A stretch of 61,872 nucleotides of DNA from Lachnospiraceae bacterium (GTDB lineage Bacteria; Bacillota; Clostridia; Lachnospirales; Lachnospiraceae). A model generated the notes under the pieces. The model was not told the origin of the DNA. It saw only the letters and a list, made by a program, of their open reading frames with translations, and did not search any database. The position numbers were made by a program, and so were the translations under genes. The stretch lies in NCBI GenBank assembly GCA_017618075.1, contig JAFZUY010000048.1:1-61872 (forward strand), in the 5' to 3' direction. Position 1 is the stretch's first letter. Each line of letters opens with the position of its first letter. Below are positions 7,047-60,598 of the stretch, one piece after another.

Positions 7047-7062
7047 ATCGTTTGAATAAAGA

Positions 7063-7178
7063 ATCTTCGGGGTCGGGTGTAATTCCCTACCGGCGGTAAC
7101 AGTCCGCGAACCGCTTCGGCGGCCGATTCGGTGCAATTCCGAGACCGACAGTAAAGTCTGGATGATAGAAGATGCAAT
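7063..7178 (+). promoter_or_regulatory. FMN riboswitch (RFN element)
   Basis: The hallmark conserved blocks are present in order: TCTTCGGGGTCGGGTG, AATTCCCTACCGGCGGTA, AGTCCGCGA, GATTCGGTGCAATTCCG, ACCGACAGTA and GTCTGGATG, ending in GATAGAAGATGCA. Helix P1 closes between the TCTTC start and the GAAGA end. FMN binding would favour the terminator at 7194-7224 and shut off the downstream ribU gene. Confidence 0.97.
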
Positions 7179-18665: not shown

Positions 18666-18683
18666 AGGGCGAATTGAATATGA

Positions 18684-18912
18684 AACGGAAGGTGTCAAAG
18701 CGACTTTGGTCGGCTTTGGTGAAAAGGGAAACAGGTGAGAGTCCTGTGCGAACTCGTCACCGTGATTACGGAGTTTATGCCAATATGCCACTGGTAACGC
18801 GGGAAGGCGGCATAGGTGTTGATGTATGAGTCGGGAGACCTGCCTTTCGCTGTACGCGGGGTTTTCCCCGAGCCACGAGTAACTGGTTGTACGAAAAGGA
18901 CAAGGGTGAGTA
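18684..18912 (+). promoter_or_regulatory. Cobalamin riboswitch
   Basis: Conserved cobalamin-aptamer blocks appear in order: GGTG near the start, GAAAAGGGAA, AGGTGAGAGTCCTGTGC, ACTCGTCACCGTGA, TGCCACTGG, GCGGGAAGGCG, and the B12 box GAGTCGGGAGACCTGCC at about 18828-18844. The closing P1 helix uses the GGTG/CAAGGGTG region. Ligand binding should favour the terminator at 18946-18978 and repress cbiK. Confidence 0.96.
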
Positions 18913-55070: not shown

Positions 55071-55643
55071 ATGAATACAGAGAAAAATAAACCTTATCAT
55101 CACGGTAATTTAAGGCAGGAACTGATTGAAAAAGGGCTTGAATATATTAACCGATGCGGCGTGGAGAATCTTTCAATGCGTAAGCTTGCAGAGGAAATTG
55201 GTGTAAGTCCTGCAGCTCCGTATGCACATTTTAAAAACAAAGAGGCCTTTTTGGAATCCACTCGTGAATATATAACGGACAGCTTAACGGATGCGTTACA
55301 GGAAACACTGGAAAAATGCACACATCAGGAAAGGATTTTGGTAGAACTTGGAAAACGATATGTATTCTTTTTTCATGAAAATCCGTTTTATTTCCATTTT
55401 TTGTTTACGACCGTAAATAATGATTTAAGCACCAATAAAGCCTTTGGTTTATTTGAGAGTGTTTCTTCGCAGATTCTGTCAGAAAAAGATGCGGGCTACT
55501 CCGGGAAAGAAATACGAAATAAAACCATAGCAATGTGGGCTTTGGTTCAGGGCATAGTACAGATTTCACTGGTTGACGGCGTGTTTAATAAAAAAAGAAT
55601 GGACAAGGAAATTGAAGAAATCATTTGTTCACTGGAGGTTTAA
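55071..55643 (+). CDS. TetR/AcrR-family regulator, WHG-domain type
   Basis: 190 residues from ATG 55071. GGAG at 55061-55064 gives 6-nt spacing; an ATG two codons earlier touches that site. The DNA-binding domain is unmistakable: YHHGNLRQELIEKGLEYINRCGVENLSMRKLAEEIGVSPAAPYAHFKNKEAFL. The YHHGNLR opening and C-terminal region (FALVQGI-like MWALVQGIVQISLVDG) fit the WHG subgroup. It is translationally close to the EFR1 ferredoxin gene (2 bp) and likely controls it and itself. Confidence 0.92.
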   Translation: MNTEKNKPYHHGNLRQELIEKGLEYINRCGVENLSMRKLAEEIGVSPAAPYAHFKNKEAFLESTREYITDSLTDALQETLEKCTHQERILVELGKRYVFFFHENPFYFHFLFTTVNNDLSTNKAFGLFESVSSQILSEKDAGYSGKEIRNKTIAMWALVQGIVQISLVDGVFNKKRMDKEIEEIICSLEV

Positions 55644-55645
55644 AT

Positions 55646-56422
55646 ATGATTGGAATATATATGAGCGGAACCGGGAATACGAAGCATTGTCTGCAAGTTT
55701 TGCTTTCTAAGCTGGAGCCTGAAGCGGAGATGATTCCGGTTGAGGACGAGTGTGCGGCAGAAAAGATTAAAGGAAATGAAGATGTTATTCTTGCCTATCC
55801 GACACAATTTTCCAATGTTCCATATATGGTCAGAGATTTTATAAATTGCAATTCCGGCATATGGCACGGGAAAAAAGTGTTCCTAATGACGACTATGGGT
55901 GCATTTTCGGGCGATGGAACCGGCTGTGCAGCAAGGTTGTTAAAAAAGTATGGGGCAATGATAATCGGTGGATTACAGGTTAGAATGCCGGATGCGGTAT
56001 GCGACAACAAAATGCTGAAAAAAACTCTTGAAGAGAACAAAAAAATAGTAGCAGAAGCGAATGAGAAAATAATAAAAATGTCAGACAGCATAATTAATAA
56101 TCATAAATATCCGAGAGAAGGGTTAAGCGTAGTGGCGCATCTGGCCGGACTTTTTGGTCAAAGGTTATGGTTCTATAACAAAACAACCGATTACAGTAAA
56201 AAACTGAAAATTGATGATAACTGCATTGGCTGCGGATTGTGTGTGAAAAACTGCCCGATGGGAAATTTGTCATTAAAAGACGGAAAAGCTGTTTCTGCGA
56301 ACCGATGTGCAATGTGCTATCGTTGCATCAGCACATGCCCAAAGCAGGCAGTTTTACTTCTTGGGAAGCATGTGTATGAACAATGCAGATATGAAAAATA
56401 TGCAACTGAGAATTTTCAGTAA
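55646..56422 (+). CDS. EFR1-type flavodoxin-ferredoxin protein
   Basis: 258 residues from ATG 55646 (GGAGG 7 nt upstream; an in-frame start at 55625 lies inside the tetR gene). Residues 1-150 form a flavodoxin fold with the FMN phosphate loop MSGTGNTKHC; residues about 190-235 hold two [4Fe-4S] motifs, CIGCGLCVKNCP and CAMCYRCISTCP. It should carry electrons between flavin and iron-sulfur clusters. Partner enzymes are not evident. Confidence 0.9.
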   Translation: MIGIYMSGTGNTKHCLQVLLSKLEPEAEMIPVEDECAAEKIKGNEDVILAYPTQFSNVPYMVRDFINCNSGIWHGKKVFLMTTMGAFSGDGTGCAARLLKKYGAMIIGGLQVRMPDAVCDNKMLKKTLEENKKIVAEANEKIIKMSDSIINNHKYPREGLSVVAHLAGLFGQRLWFYNKTTDYSKKLKIDDNCIGCGLCVKNCPMGNLSLKDGKAVSANRCAMCYRCISTCPKQAVLLLGKHVYEQCRYEKYATENFQ

Positions 56423-56441
56423 CGTTTATTAGAAACTGAAG

Positions 56442-56474
56442 AACCTGAAGGATGATGACTCTTCGGGTTTCTTT
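56442..56474 (+). terminator. Terminator after EFR1 gene
   Basis: AACCTGAAG and CTTCGGGTT form a 9-bp stem (one G-U) with a 10-nt loop, then TTCTTTATGG. The same hairpin class precedes leader element copy D at 60470. Confidence 0.75.
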
Positions 56475-56545
56475 ATGGTAAAATTTATTATGTTAGGAAT
56501 GCTATTTTTGGTTTTCCGCACCAACGCTTAGTAATTATCTTTAAA
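56474..56545 (+). promoter_or_regulatory. Leader element copy C, possible small transcript
   Basis: An extended -10 TGGTAAAAT (56476-56484) is followed 24 nt later by TTGGTTTTCCGCACCAA, which can fold as a 5-bp stem with loop TTTCCGC. GTAATTATCTTTA follows as in copy B. With the terminator at 56585-56624 this would make an RNA of about 130 nt. It also contains a 15-codon reading frame (ATG 56579) that ends in the terminator hairpin. No gene larger than that is present between 56423 and 56720. Confidence 0.5.
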
Positions 56546-56584
56546 TAAAAAAGGCTAGAGACGAAAGGTTGATTGCATATGAAT

Positions 56585-56624: not shown

Positions 56625-56644
56625 AGAAAGTTGTAATAAAATAG

Positions 56645-56699
56645 TTGACAAGTTCTAAACAAGGTGATAACATACACTTGTAACATAAAACATTACAAG
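56645..56699 (+). promoter_or_regulatory. Promoter and operator of YwnB-like gene
   Basis: TTGACA (56645-56650), a 17-bp spacer and TAACAT (56668-56673). CTTGTAA (56677-56683) and TTACAAG (56693-56699) form an inverted repeat at the start site. The same half-sites recur at 57363-57369 and 57467-57473 before the Rrf2 gene, so this is a likely operator of that regulator. Confidence 0.7.
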
Positions 56700-56720: not shown

Positions 56721-57353
56721 ATGAAGATTGCAGTTGTAGCAGCAAACGGTCGAGTAGCACAGAAGGTTGTTAAAGAAGCACAGGAGCGTGGATTTAATGT
56801 AACCGCATACGCACGTGAAGATGAGAATAAGTCCGGTGCGGCCACATATATTAAGAAAGATATTCTGGACCTGACAAAGGAAGACTTGGCAGGCTTCGAT
56901 GCTGTTGTTGATGGCTTTGGCGCATGGGAAGAGGATAAGCTTGGTGGTCACGTTAAGACTTCTCAGCATCTTTGTGATATCCTCTCCGGAACGGATGTCC
57001 GTCTTCTGATCGTGGGTGGTGCAGGCAGCCTCTATGTAAATCCTGAGCATACGGCAGTTGTATGTGAAGGACCTGATTTCCCAGCGATGTTCCTTCCTCT
57101 TGCTAAGGCTCAGGGAGAAGAACTGGCAAAGTTGCGTGAGAGAAATGATGTGAAGTGGACATTTATCAGTCCTGCAGGCGATTTCCAGGCAGATGGTGAG
57201 AGAAGCGGAAAGTACATTCTTGCCGGTGAAGAACTGACGCTTAACAGCAAGGGAGAGAGTATCATCAGCTATGCAGACTATGCAATCGCAATGGTTGATG
57301 AAATCGAAAAAGGCAATCATATTCACCAGAGAATCAGCGTAGTAAGAGAGTAG
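56721..57353 (+). CDS. NAD(P)-binding oxidoreductase, YwnB-like
   Basis: 211 residues from ATG 56721 (AAGGAGG 8 nt upstream; an in-frame ATG at 56664 overlaps the promoter). It is an atypical short-chain dehydrogenase/NmrA-like fold: MKIAVVAANGRVAQKVVKEAQERG in place of the GxxGxxG loop, then DAVVDGFGAWEE, RLLIVGGAGSLYVNP and WTFISPAGDFQADGERSGKYI. B. subtilis ywnB has the same size and stands beside an Rrf2 gene, ywnA, as here. Substrate unknown, probably redox or electrophile stress. Confidence 0.85.
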   Translation: MKIAVVAANGRVAQKVVKEAQERGFNVTAYAREDENKSGAATYIKKDILDLTKEDLAGFDAVVDGFGAWEEDKLGGHVKTSQHLCDILSGTDVRLLIVGGAGSLYVNPEHTAVVCEGPDFPAMFLPLAKAQGEELAKLRERNDVKWTFISPAGDFQADGERSGKYILAGEELTLNSKGESIISYADYAIAMVDEIEKGNHIHQRISVVRE

Positions 57354-57377
57354 TATTGACAGCTTGTAACATCTGCG

Positions 57378-57460
57378 TTGACAAGCCTCGTGTAAACAGA
57401 TATATTATTGAAAACAGGTTTTCAATAATCAGGTATTCTTGAAAGCAAGTTTTCAAGAAT
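57378..57460 (+). promoter_or_regulatory. Promoter with two tandem palindromes before Rrf2 gene
   Basis: TTGACA (57378-57383), a 17-bp spacer and TATATT (57401-57406). At the start site lie two palindromes: ATTATTGAAAA/TTTTCAATAAT (57404-57429) and ATTCTTGAAA/TTTCAAGAAT (57435-57460), each followed by CAGGT. The repeat period is 31 bp. CTTGTAA (57363) and TTACAAG (57467) flank them. They could be operators or leader-RNA hairpins. Confidence 0.7.
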
Positions 57461-57488
57461 CAGGTATTACAAGCAGGAGAGTAGATCA

Positions 57489-57932
57489 ATGCAGATTACA
57501 AGCAAGTTTACAATCGCAGTGCACATTATTACTGCCATAGATTATTTCAAGGATCATGAGAAAGTGACAAGTAATTTTCTGGCCGGAAGCGTAGGTGCAA
57601 ATCCGGTTATTGTCCGGAATGTCATGGGCAACCTGAAGGAAGCCGGCATTATTGATATCAGCCAGGGCAAGAGTGGAATTACCCTTGCGAAAAGGCTTGA
57701 GGACATTACGTTCTATGATATATATAGGGCAGTAGATAGTGTGAGCGATGAAGGACTTTTCCATTTTCACGAGAATCCAAATGCAAACTGCCCGGTTGGA
57801 AGAAATATTCATAAAGCAGTGGATGAGAAGCTTCTGAAAGTGCAGCAGGCTATGGAAGCTGAGATGAAACAGATTACCCTTTCAGATGTTGTTGAAGACA
57901 CGAGAAAAGGGATCCTAAACGAAACAGCATAA
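57489..57932 (+). CDS. Rrf2-family regulator, YwnA-like
   Basis: 147 residues. The winged helix starts MQITSKFTIAVHIITAIDYF and continues with NPVIVRNVMGNLKEAGIIDISQGKSGITLAKRLEDITFYDIYRAV, standard for Rrf2. Only one cysteine is present (C101 in NANCPVG), so it cannot bind the three-cysteine Fe-S cluster of IscR/NsrR; like YwnA/CymR relatives it may sense thiol or electrophile stress through that residue. It follows the YwnB-like gene, its likely target. RBS AGGAGAG precedes the ATG. Confidence 0.92.
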   Translation: MQITSKFTIAVHIITAIDYFKDHEKVTSNFLAGSVGANPVIVRNVMGNLKEAGIIDISQGKSGITLAKRLEDITFYDIYRAVDSVSDEGLFHFHENPNANCPVGRNIHKAVDEKLLKVQQAMEAEMKQITLSDVVEDTRKGILNETA

Positions 57933-57952
57933 CAGGCAGCTGAGAATGATGT

Positions 57953-57987
57953 GAAGGTCTCCGGAGATATTTCTTCGGAGACCTTTT
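57953..57987 (+). terminator. Terminator after Rrf2 gene
   Basis: AAGGTCTCCG and CGGAGACCTT form a 10-bp stem followed by TTAAGAAAG; the T-run is short but the stem is strong. Confidence 0.82.
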
Positions 57988-58006
57988 AAGAAAGAAGGCG
58001 GGAAGA

Positions 58007-58627
58007 ATGGAAGCAGTGGATTATCTGGCTTATATTTCAAAGGTTATTCATACAACTATCGTAGCTACCGTGGATGATGAAGGGCTGCCGGTTACGGCTG
58101 CAATTGATATGATGGATAGCGACGAAAACGGATTATACTTTCTTACGGCTAAGGGTAAGAACTTCTATGACCGTCTGATCAAAAGAGGGTATTTGGCGCT
58201 GACGGCAATGAAGGGTGAGGATACTATGTCGAGTGTGGCGGTATCTGTCCGGGGCAAGGTCAGGGAACTTGGGTACGAGAAGATACCGGAGCTTTTCGAG
58301 AAGAACCCGTACATGCATGATATCTATCCGACGGAAGAATCCATGCATGCGCTGACGGTGTTCCAGATTTATGAAGGTACGGGTGAATACTTTGATCTGT
58401 CGAAAAAGCCGATCGAGAGATCAAGCTTTGCATTCGGTGGCGAGGAAAAGAAAGAACAGGGTTACTTCATAACGGATGCCTGTATCGGATGCGGATCATG
58501 CGTGGCGGTGTGTCCGCAGAACTGCATCATTCAGAATGAAGTGCCCTTTGTGATAAAGCAGGAAAACTGTCTGCATTGTGGGAACTGCATGACAGCATGT
58601 CCTACAGGAACGGTGGAAAGAAGGTGA
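58007..58627 (+). CDS. PPOX-fold flavin protein with 2x[4Fe-4S] ferredoxin domain
   Basis: 206 residues. Residues 1-135 match the pyridoxamine-5'-phosphate-oxidase-like split barrel (VIHTTIVATVDDEGLPVTAAIDMMDSDENGLYFLTAKGKNFYDRL), which normally binds FMN. Residues about 152-205 are a bacterial ferredoxin with CIGCGSCVAVCP and CLHCGNCMTACP. Electron transfer between flavin and clusters is likely; the substrate is unknown. It ends 6 bp before the macrodomain gene, so the three genes 58007-60404 look like one operon. AAGGCGGGAAG serves as RBS. Confidence 0.88.
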   Translation: MEAVDYLAYISKVIHTTIVATVDDEGLPVTAAIDMMDSDENGLYFLTAKGKNFYDRLIKRGYLALTAMKGEDTMSSVAVSVRGKVRELGYEKIPELFEKNPYMHDIYPTEESMHALTVFQIYEGTGEYFDLSKKPIERSSFAFGGEEKKEQGYFITDACIGCGSCVAVCPQNCIIQNEVPFVIKQENCLHCGNCMTACPTGTVERR

Positions 58628-58633
58628 CGGCTG

Positions 58634-59440
58634 ATGTCTGAGATAATTACACAGGAACAGAGGCTTGATTTCCTCGTGGAAGAGTTCAAGGCTGATTCCA
58701 ATGAATATAAGAATCTTGAAACACCAAAGGATACGGAAGGGAAAAGACGGATTCTCCGTTCGCTTATGAATATCCGTATGCCAAAGGAAATGGCGGAAGA
58801 AGTTGTGAAAGTTCAAGATGAATATCTGAAGGAAAGAGCCACTGATAAAGGAATCGTGGAGCTGTCGGAGATCCCGGATATTCGTGAAGGTATTTCCATC
58901 TGGCAGGGGGATATCACAAGGCTCGCCGTGGACGCAATCGTTAATGCGGCTAATTCACAGATGCTTGGATGCTTTGTCCCTATGCATACCTGCATTGATA
59001 ATTGTATCCACACCTTCGCAGGAATCCAGCTCAGGGAAGAGTGCAGCAGACAGATGAATCAGCTTAGGATCAAATACGGAAGGGATTATGAACAGCCTAC
59101 GGCGGTTCCGATGCTGACGGACGCATACAATCTTCCGGCGAAGAAGGTGATCCATATCGTAGGCCCGATCGTTCAGCACAAGTTAACACCGGCACTTGAA
59201 AAGGATCTGGCTGACTGTTACCGGAATACCCTTGATATGTGCCTGGATAATGGGCTTAAGAGCGTGGCGTTCTGCTGCATTTCAACCGGAGTATTCCATT
59301 TCCCGAATAAAAGAGCTGCAGAAATTGCGATGGAGACCGTGCAGGGATGGCTAAGGGCGCATCCGGGTCAGATGGAAAGGGTGATCTTTAATGTTTTCAA
59401 AGATGAAGATAAGGACATCTACGAAGGACTTTTATCGTGA
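58634..59440 (+). CDS. Zinc-type macrodomain protein, ADP-ribosyl hydrolase
   Basis: 268 residues. A helical N-terminal region (1-80) precedes the macrodomain: WQGDITRLAVDAIVNAANSQMLGC (GDIT 92-95, NAAN 104-107), then CFVPMHTCIDNCIHTFAGIQLREEC. Residues C113, H118 and C120 match the zinc ligands of the SirTM-linked macrodomains of Staphylococcus and Streptococcus. FCCISTGVFHFPNKRAAEIA is the second ADP-ribose loop. It should remove ADP-ribose from proteins modified by the sirtuin encoded next (1-bp gap). Confidence 0.92.
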   Translation: MSEIITQEQRLDFLVEEFKADSNEYKNLETPKDTEGKRRILRSLMNIRMPKEMAEEVVKVQDEYLKERATDKGIVELSEIPDIREGISIWQGDITRLAVDAIVNAANSQMLGCFVPMHTCIDNCIHTFAGIQLREECSRQMNQLRIKYGRDYEQPTAVPMLTDAYNLPAKKVIHIVGPIVQHKLTPALEKDLADCYRNTLDMCLDNGLKSVAFCCISTGVFHFPNKRAAEIAMETVQGWLRAHPGQMERVIFNVFKDEDKDIYEGLLS

Positions 59441-59441
59441 G

Positions 59442-60404
59442 ATGCCTAACGGATATGAAGAATCTATCAGAAGGGGGATGAGTGCGGTGAGATACTTTAG
59501 CAGAAACATCTCTTATGGCAAGGGCACAAGGGAAGAGCAGATTGCCAGACTGAAAAAAGAAATTGAAACTGCCGATGCAATAGTGATCGGAGCAGGTTCC
59601 GGACTTTCCACTTCTGCCGGACTTACGTATAGTGGAGAGCGCTTTGATAAATATTTCTTTGACTTTGCAAAGAGGTTTGGAATCAGGGATATTTACTCCG
59701 GTGGGTTTTATCCTTTTCCGGACGACGAAACGCGTTGGGCGTGGTGGGCAAGGCACATCTATTACAACAGATACATTGATGCTCCGAAACAGGTATATCG
59801 GGAACTGTTTGAACTTGTGAAGGATAAGGATTATTTCGTCATCACAACAAATGTGGATCACCAGTTTCAGAAGGCAGAATTTGATAAGAAGCGCCTGTTC
59901 TATACACAGGGGGACTATGGTTTATTTCAGAGTGCGGATGGCCATGTTCAGAAGACCTATGATAATGAGGAATGGGTGATGAAGGCGATGGAGGCTCAAG
60001 GCTTTGTAAAAGATGAAGCGGGTGTGTTCCAGGTGCCGGAGGACAAGGGGATTACTATGAGAATACCAACAGAAATAATCCCGAAATGTCCTGATGACGG
60101 TTCGGATGTGACGATGAATCTTCGTGCAGATGATTCCTTTGTGGAGGATGAAGGCTGGCACAGGGCTTCGACGGCTTACTCGGATTTCCTGAGAAGACAT
60201 GAGAATCTTCATGTGCTGTATCTGGAATTAGGCGTTGGAGCCAATACTCCTGTGATCGTCAAATATCCATTCTGGCAGATGACAATGGCGAATGATAAGG
60301 CTGTGTATGCCTGCCTGAACTATGGCGAGGCATTCTGTCCGGGAGAGATTGAGGATAGAAGCATCTGTATAGATGGTGATATAGGAGAGGTGCTGGCGCG
60401 ATAA
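59442..60404 (+). CDS. Class M sirtuin (SirTM), putative protein ADP-ribosyltransferase
   Basis: 320 residues from ATG 59442, placed 1 nt after the macrodomain stop; an in-frame start at 59391 and an internal ATG at 59478 are alternatives. NAD-binding motifs are AIVIGAGSGLSTSAGLTYSG (about 46-65) and YFVITTNVDHQFQ (131-143). At the position of the usual catalytic histidine the sequence reads YTQGDYGLFQ, with glutamine (Q156), as in SirTM enzymes that ADP-ribosylate rather than deacetylate. The classical four-cysteine zinc site is not evident. In known operons SirTM modifies lipoylated GcvH-L; no GcvH-L or LplA is visible here, so the target is unknown. Confidence 0.9.
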   Translation: MPNGYEESIRRGMSAVRYFSRNISYGKGTREEQIARLKKEIETADAIVIGAGSGLSTSAGLTYSGERFDKYFFDFAKRFGIRDIYSGGFYPFPDDETRWAWWARHIYYNRYIDAPKQVYRELFELVKDKDYFVITTNVDHQFQKAEFDKKRLFYTQGDYGLFQSADGHVQKTYDNEEWVMKAMEAQGFVKDEAGVFQVPEDKGITMRIPTEIIPKCPDDGSDVTMNLRADDSFVEDEGWHRASTAYSDFLRRHENLHVLYLELGVGANTPVIVKYPFWQMTMANDKAVYACLNYGEAFCPGEIEDRSICIDGDIGEVLAR

Positions 60405-60469
60405 CTCGAAAGCTAATGCACTATGTTAAAACATTAACTACTGTGGAAAATGGATTTTAAGTTGTAAGG

Positions 60470-60497
60470 ACCTGAAGAGTGATGACTCTTCAGGTTT
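60470..60497 (+). terminator. Terminator after sirtuin gene
   Basis: ACCTGAAGAG and CTCTTCAGGT form a perfect 10-bp stem with a 6-nt loop, then TTATTTATGG. Confidence 0.8.
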
Positions 60498-60502
60498 ATT
60501 TA

Positions 60503-60575
60503 TGGTAAAATGTAGCTTGTTAGGTGTTCTAATTTTGGTTTTCCGCACCAGTGGGAGATCATTAACTTTTAATAA
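60503..60575 (+). promoter_or_regulatory. Leader element copy D
   Basis: Extended -10 TGGTAAAAT (60503-60511) and, 24 nt later, TGGTTTTCCGCACCA (60536-60550) that can fold as TGGT/ACCA around TTTCCGC. ATCATTAACTTTTA follows. The small EamA gene starts 48 nt downstream of the hairpin. The terminator-promoter-hairpin arrangement is the same as in copy C. Confidence 0.55.
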
Positions 60576-60598
60576 AACGCTCCAAGGGAGATGCGAAT

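Follow-up and report, generated by a model that had tools for sequence, protein, structure and literature searches.

Class M sirtuins (SirTM) have been described in an extended operon of Staphylococcaceae and Lactobacillales, where they stand with a zinc macrodomain protein (Zn-Macro), the lipoyl carrier GcvH-L and LplA2, together with OYE and LLM genes (Rack 2015, Ariza 2024, accessible text of both). The accessible text of the later paper (PMC11490716) gives GcvH-L as the sole known SirTM target and describes other targets of SirTM and Zn-Macro as unknown. SirTM/Zn-Macro pairs without GcvH-L, such as the independent (minimal) operon of Methanobrevibacter oralis, also appear in the accessible text of PMC4518038 and PMC11490716, published in 2015 and 2024. 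A third described system is the SifR/YwnA-YwnB quinone response of Streptococcus pneumoniae and Bacillus subtilis, in which, according to the accessible text of PMC9218516, SifR senses quinone and has a single conserved cysteine, its operator is TGTAA-N9-TTACA and YwnB acts as an NAD(P)H quinone reductase. Our subject is a block of five co-directional genes (+ strand, 56721-60404) in a contig of 61,872 nucleotides from a Lachnospiraceae bacterium (JAFZUY010000048.1, assembly GCA_017618075.1; the whole contig is called the window below). The block encodes a YwnB-like reductase, a YwnA/SifR-type Rrf2 regulator, a protein that joins a PPOX split barrel to ferredoxin motifs (PPOX-Fd), a Zn-Macro and a SirTM. 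We interpret the locus as one electrophile/thiol-stress unit in which SirTM would act on PPOX-Fd or on its immediate redox partner, and we give this interpretation a probability of roughly one half. The setting, in which a protein-tagging enzyme and the protein that erases its tag adjoin a flavin/Fe-S protein and a thiol-type stress regulator, recurs in many bacteria and offers a testable new partner for SirTM.

The locus is like the extended operon in its adjacent Zn-Macro and SirTM genes, their equal catalytic residues, the presumed redox protein within the operon and the stress setting. It differs in that neither GcvH-L nor LplA was found in the window, that the third gene encodes PPOX-Fd, that a YwnA/SifR-type regulator lies upstream and that the macrodomain is missing the two arginines predicted to contact GcvH-L. 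With the independent operon it shares the lack of a lipoyl partner, and its macrodomain has that of M. oralis as the nearest solved one; that operon, known here by its description in accessible text, comprises the pair only, whereas the window has a linked PPOX-Fd, YwnB, Rrf2 and operator sites. With the SifR system the locus shares an Rrf2 protein with a CPV cysteine, the operator and YwnB, but its regulator precedes PPOX-Fd, Zn-Macro and SirTM, which the accessible text of PMC9218516 does not mention. An earlier reading of the letters and translated reading frames of the window (the sequence-only reading) had set the lack of GcvH-L and LplA against the described operons; the absence stands for this locus but is no novelty by itself, given the independent operons of 2015 and 2024. 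That reading had also set the module at 58007..60404, and the three co-directional + strand open reading frames (ORFs) are indeed there, although two upstream genes were left out of the unit. Our literature search, which did not extend to supplements and most subscription journals, found no PPOX partner and no Rrf2 regulator beside SirTM/Zn-Macro among the papers listed. The main text of PMC4518038 (supplement outside the search) has no Rrf2, quinone, ferredoxin or pyridox-, and that of PMC11490716 (likewise) no Rrf2, pyridoxamine, ferredoxin, 4Fe-4S or quinone.

Recurrence of PPOX-Fd beside Zn-Macro and SirTM

The association was examined in 392 genomes of the order, with thresholds of E 1e-10 for SirTM and E 1e-20 for PPOX-Fd. 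SirTM was detected in 134/392 and PPOX-Fd in 66/392 genomes, and SirTM occurs in 57 of the 66 PPOX-Fd genomes as compared with 77 of the 326 others (Fisher 5e-22; the genomes are related by descent). A phylum-wide sample contained SirTM in 25 of 398 genomes. Linkage was counted on 150 listed SirTM places, which cover 118 of the 134 SirTM-bearing genomes. Among these listed matches, a SirTM is found within 6 kb for 50 of the 78 PPOX-Fd places, and there PPOX-Fd is always on the SirTM strand (50/50), nearly always upstream (48/50) and mostly adjoining Macro or SirTM; SirTM fragments are counted among the 50, as is one match that contains stops (G030). Neighbourhoods were analysed and clustered for 160 of 164 merged regions, the missing four being PPOX-Fd places without a listed SirTM.

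Gene content was also counted around SirTM ORFs with full flanks, defined as ORFs of at least 230 aa with 2.5 kb upstream and 1.5 kb downstream. These number 105 of 141 in the order sample and 64 of 80 among the named loci, which are the best 80 of at least 587 relatives and include 5 duplicates of order-sample loci. The window locus falls outside the set, the contig ending 1468 bp past the SirTM stop. A linked PPOX-Fd accompanies 33/105 and 18/64 full-flank ORFs, and a macrodomain lies within 1.5 kb of SirTM in 74/105 and 49/64; with the 5 repeats taken out of the named set, the counts are 18/61 for PPOX-Fd and 46/61 for Macro.

The five-gene order of the window is found again in L049, in Ruminococcus flavefaciens FD-1 (L293) and MA2007 (L297) and in L298, as well as in L286, there with 1.1 kb before the macrodomain; L146, L245 and L239 hold these five genes in a different order. 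Eggerthia catenaformis (L244) likewise has the trio of PPOX-Fd, Zn-Macro and SirTM, and so do two uncultured assemblies, labelled Spirochaetaceae (L230) and Succinivibrio (L284), in which binning error is possible. Conservation of the trio in related genomes, proposed as a check by the sequence-only reading, was thus observed in many genomes beyond this strain. Linkage, order, recurrence and shared control make it very probable that PPOX-Fd is a functional partner of the pair where it is present.

Plasmids carry variants of the arrangement. Treponema saccharophilum pTS1 encodes an NAD(P)H-binding protein, a PPOX protein, Rrf2, SirTM and Macro; an Enterococcus casseliflavus plasmid encodes Rrf2, SDR, Macro and SirTM with a 149-aa PPOX protein without ferredoxin, 45.8% identical to the PPOX half of PPOX-Fd. 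On a Subdoligranulum plasmid that came with no gene table, the PPOX-Fd and SirTM matches are 116 bp apart; a Niallia stretch is unannotated. It may be that the PPOX barrel is the constant component and that the ferredoxin half was added to it. The recurrent linked PPOX-Fd and the ferredoxin-less PPOX protein of Enterococcus together provide a short list of candidate SirTM targets.

Predicted activities and the question of a lipoyl target

In family scans of the five block proteins, PPOX-Fd has a PNPOx_N match (2.1e-7) and matches to several Fer4 families in Pfam, and eight of its nine cysteines form two CxxCxxCxxxC motifs (159/162/165/169 and 188/191/194/198). Zn-Macro scores 310.9 bits against the cut-off of 272 for NCBIfam PRK04143 (protein-ADP-ribose hydrolase) and has C113, H118 and C120 together with a Dx3H motif, D122-x3-H126; the C/H/C zinc ligands are kept in 161, 161 and 162 of 162 aligned macrodomains. 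By motif and family it is a predicted zinc-dependent ADP-ribosyl hydrolase. Its nearest solved chain is MorMacro of M. oralis (8rsi, 241.9 bits), followed by SauMacro (187.3) and SpyMacro (172.7), and by a manual column count its Q181/H182 align with R175/R176 of SauMacro, the pair that accessible text places in the predicted GcvH-L contact. According to the accessible text of PMC11490716, MorMacro and fusion-type Zn-Macros are unable to demodify S. pyogenes GcvH-L.

The SirTM ORF has no Pfam or NCBIfam match at E 0.001, and phmmer pairs it (1.3e-48) with 5a3a, labelled 'SIR2 family protein'. We take 5a3a to be the SirTM of S. pyogenes, given that four of its residues (Asn, Asp, Gln and Arg) fit, at a constant offset of 10 by manual count, the residues N118, D120, Q137 and R192 discussed in the accessible text of PMC4518038. 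Their equivalents in the window are N154, D156, Q173 and R245, and the Gln that replaces the catalytic His (QG in place of HG) is present in 210/219 aligned SirTM ORFs. The protein is a predicted class M protein ADP-ribosyltransferase. Its likelier start is ATG 59442, one base past the macrodomain stop, in preference to the listed 59391 inside the macrodomain gene. All residue counts from alignments (SirTM, Macro, PPOX-Fd N100 and the tandem SirTM copies below) include repeated sequences. The zinc macrodomain, the sirtuin with Gln for His and the flavin-fold/2x[4Fe-4S] protein 6 bp before the macrodomain gene had all been recognised by the sequence-only reading, and each was borne out by these searches.

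The genome contains another Macro-SirTM pair (L117, G000:C41:209209-210862; 79% and 65% identity), which is followed by an FMN-reductase-like gene, with no PPOX-Fd mapped there. Tandem SirTM genes without a nearby macrodomain occur in L162, L165, L172 and L174-L178, adjoined in five of the eight by an opposite-strand Rrf2 gene. One copy per locus has Glu for Gln173 and no Arg245; another retains all of N, D and Q and has Arg in 7/8 loci, Lys in L175. The copies are possible enzyme/pseudoenzyme pairs.

DarT and DarG form a toxin-antitoxin pair. SirTM and Zn-Macro could be a comparable pair with the redox genes as passengers, an idea that agrees with genes that abut or overlap, the eraser leading (in the window the macrodomain gene is directly 5' of SirTM), the patchy distribution and the plasmid copies. 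We consider it highly unlikely: 31/105 and 15/64 full-flank SirTM ORFs have no same-strand macrodomain within 1.5 kb, redox regulator and flavoprotein neighbours recur, and SirTM activity as published is substrate-specific and stress-linked (PMC4518038, accessible text).

A further possibility is that the target is still a GcvH-L-like lipoyl protein, distant or unassembled, as in the extended operon. The window locus has no GcvH-L or LplA2, which separates it from that operon, and a search of its assembly (89% complete) with PF01597, PF03099 and TIGR00545 found no GcvH-L or LplA elsewhere. Such a pair, modified by this SirTM, was one of two outcomes that the sequence-only reading would have taken to refute its proposal, the other being a trio confined to this strain, and neither came about. 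The sole PF01597 match there (21.4 bits, under the cut-off) comes from an ORF of 125 aa that reads as biotinyl-carrier-like, EAMKM motif included, and was rejected as GcvH-L; both PF03099 matches were read as biotin ligases and not LplA, and the LplA model TIGR00545 had zero matches. A congener with a 100% complete genome (G336) has only a partial PF01597 match (23.1 bits, 24-74 of 122) and none to TIGR00545. We also surveyed 80 SirTM genomes, 45 with a linked PPOX-Fd and 35 chosen from the remainder. Full-length GcvH (at least 130 bits) was found in 4/80 and an LplA match in 10/80, 8 of them over the cut-off; among the 45, the numbers are 2 and 6. PF01597 matches of any kind occur in 42/80 genomes, all but the full GcvH being partial at 20-29 bits, and exceed the cut-off in 30/80, where nearly all are partial at 22-29 bits. 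With no LplA in 70/80 and no full GcvH in 76/80, lipoylation is unlikely to be a general requirement of SirTM. The ORFs of the fetched SirTM/PPOX-Fd neighbourhoods contain no homologue of four canonical GcvH queries, which a very divergent GcvH-L could escape. The incomplete assembly and the scattered GcvH, LplA and PF01597 matches leave some room for a lipoyl target, but the complete congener, the neighbourhood ORFs and the inability of the nearest macrodomain relative to demodify GcvH-L make it extremely unlikely. The rarity of lipoate genes in SirTM genomes and the failure of MorMacro on GcvH-L both fit a different target. To this extent the sequence-only proposal of a target other than GcvH-L is supported; the Fe-S protein that it named as a possible target is a candidate by analogy with GcvH-L.

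Predicted thiol-type control and the proposed mechanism

The YwnB-like ORF is listed from GTG 56664, with ATG 56721 as the likelier start, and its phmmer match, 4r01, is pneumococcal YwnB according to the accessible text of PMC9218516. The Rrf2 protein matches the structures 1ylf (9.7e-32) and 1xd7 (YwnA, 6.1e-26) and scores 56.1 bits with NCBIfam HypR, under the cut-off of 180. CPVG is found in 59/62 distinct SirTM-linked Rrf2 proteins (the 64/67 figure for Rrf2 includes repeats); 55/67 linked proteins have additional Cys, while the window protein has just one and lacks an Fe-S ligand set. Operator-like sites with at most one mismatch number eight in the whole window against 2.8 expected, three of them near the YwnB and Rrf2 genes. 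In distinct regions 5' of SirTM-linked Rrf2/YwnB genes the operator is exact in 39/71 and within one mismatch in 61/71 (40 and 63 of 73 before removal of duplicates), compared with 1/760 and 24/760 for control genes of the order-sample loci. These results suggest that the regulator of the window is a YwnA/SifR-type Rrf2 with putative operators at its target promoters, and the predicted sites give a hint of which stress acts on a SirTM locus.

The 78-nt gap between Rrf2 and PPOX-Fd folds at -28.5 kcal/mol (z -4.2). Of the 31 distinct gaps that follow an Rrf2 gene, 22 contain a hairpin of at least 8 bp with a T-rich tail, where composition shuffles give 2.85; the shuffles for both operator and hairpin statistics preserve base composition only. 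Since only 20 nt separate the end of the window hairpin from the PPOX-Fd start, the trio may be transcribed by read-through. Five other loci have an exact operator inside this gap.

We propose that the Rrf2 repressor would occupy the TGTAA-N9-TTACA sites and, by analogy with SifR and HypR, would be released when its CPVG cysteine reacts with quinone, HOCl or a similar oxidant, allowing expression of YwnB, PPOX-Fd, Zn-Macro and SirTM. PPOX-Fd would bind FMN and two [4Fe-4S] clusters and donate electrons of low potential to an acceptor that is oxidised or electrophilic. SirTM, using NAD+, would ADP-ribosylate PPOX-Fd or its immediate redox partner, leaving it inactive or undocked, and Zn-Macro would strip the mark. 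PPOX-Fd would in this way occupy the role that the lipoyl carrier GcvH-L has in the extended operon. Of this picture we observe the gene content, the residues for catalysis and metal binding, the repeated linkage, the scarcity of lipoate genes and the operator enrichment; we infer the shared transcript, the thiol sensing, the cofactors and electron transfer of PPOX-Fd and its part as substrate. From the GcvH-L analogy PPOX-Fd is the best candidate for the SirTM substrate, though that it is the ADP-ribosylated protein can be put forward only tentatively. With like caution we suggest that the substrate of lipoate-free SirTM systems may be PPOX-Fd, a flavin/Fe-S electron carrier gated by reversible ADP-ribosylation under a quinone-type thiol switch. 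If true, GcvH-L and PPOX-Fd would be two solutions to one principle, in which ADP-ribose locks an electron carrier encoded in a stress operon.

For PPOX-Fd a substrate role and co-regulation without modification are about as likely. PPOX-Fd might be merely a co-regulated redox effector, with SirTM and Zn-Macro acting on a different protein or small molecule elsewhere, and we hold this to be a realistic prospect at somewhat less than even odds. The neighbours vary as in a regulon, with nitroreductase, small PPOX, FMN reductase, HxlR and radical SAM genes (HxlR-type regulators in 44/160 neighbourhoods). The constant strand and position of the linked genes and the presence of SirTM in most PPOX-Fd genomes speak against it, as does a quick SirTM tree of 166 rows (197 before near-identical rows were merged; rows with a short upstream flank and without PPOX-Fd excluded). 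On this tree 39 changes of the PPOX-Fd linkage label are required, and starred branches force 16 of these, so the pairing has been gained or lost many times and is only weakly inherited.

Several findings weigh against PPOX-Fd or its redox partner as the object of SirTM, some of them in favour of co-regulation. PPOX-Fd is absent from most full-flank SirTM loci and therefore cannot be the target of all SirTMs; 28/78 PPOX-Fd places have no SirTM within 6 kb among the matches listed, some lying beside an OpuB-type transporter. Shuffled labels need 47 changes on the SirTM tree against 39, so that the linkage label is weakly clustered. Predicted operator-type control is not general to SirTM operons, being rare in those without a linked Rrf2 (exact 2/81, within one mismatch 9/81). 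No residue clearly discriminates SirTM-linked PPOX-Fd, N100 alone differing (0.82 in 66 linked against 0.56 in 18 other sequences). No PPOX gene is present in the annotated stretch of a Levilactobacillus plasmid (SirTM-like, 32% identity) or of a Vibrio plasmid with Macro and SirTM, and no SirTM is annotated within 5 kb of a PPOX-Fd copy on a Methanosphaera plasmid.

Features of the block and other observations

The features of the block are collected in Table 1. The 112-nt direct repeats on its two sides, the two copies found in this genome with a 100-base query, may be the trace of an old insertion.

Table 1. Coordinates of the five-gene block, its predicted control elements and its flanking repeats in the window
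Feature	Position	Strand	Details
112-nt direct repeat flanking the block, left copy	56439..56550	+	79% identity to 60466-60577
YwnB promoter region	56632..56697	+	Operator-like 56632-56650 (1 mismatch); exact TGTAA-N9-TTACA 56679-56697; promoter-like 56645-56673
YwnB-like NAD(P)H-binding oxidoreductase	56721..57353	+	phmmer 3.3e-69 to 4r01
Operator-like and promoter-like sequences 5' of regulator gene	57365..57406	+	Operator-like 57365-57383 (1 mismatch); promoter-like 57378-57406
Two tandem 31-nt units 5' of regulator gene	57403..57464	+	Palindrome in each, by eye
Rrf2-family regulator, YwnA/SifR type	57489..57932	+	Pfam Rrf2 2.3e-30; single Cys, in CPVG
Terminator-like hairpin between regulator and trio	57953..57986	+	15-bp stem
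PPOX-Fd, 206 aa	58007..58627	+	PPOX split barrel and 2x[4Fe-4S] ferredoxin motifs
Zinc macrodomain	58634..59440	+	C113/H118/C120; PRK04143 match
SirTM, class M sirtuin	59442..60404	+	Gln replacing catalytic His; ORF listed from 59391
112-nt direct repeat, right copy	60466..60577	+	Pairs with 56439-56550, 79% identity

Just 5' of the block, a flavodoxin-like protein with 2x[4Fe-4S] motifs is encoded at 55625-56422 (by eye). The window also contains an FMN riboswitch (7059-7177) and a cobalamin riboswitch (18673-18861), the latter ahead of apparent cobalamin biosynthesis ORFs (by eye).

Certain loci have an ACGX radical SAM cassette and a nitroreductase gene ahead of PPOX-Fd, Macro and SirTM. 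Of 21 loci with a TIGR04340-type radical SAM gene, 19 have ACGX-repeat peptide ORFs with at least two CG pairs before it, among them L050, L066, L067, L070, L072, L075, L088 and the Roseburia plasmid (L335), and several continue with nitroreductase, PPOX-Fd, Macro and SirTM. The annotation of the Roseburia plasmid gives consecutively acgA, acgM, nitroreductase, a 4Fe-4S protein, Macro and Sir2. The matches listed in our literature search on the ACGX system held nothing relevant.

At L061, L062, L064 and L187-L190, PPOX-Fd is followed by an OpuB-type fused permease/binding protein and an ATPase. The one binding domain examined is nearest to 8dp6, which we take to be Helicobacter pylori EgtU, and has matches to choline and ergothioneine (EgtUC) binding proteins as well.

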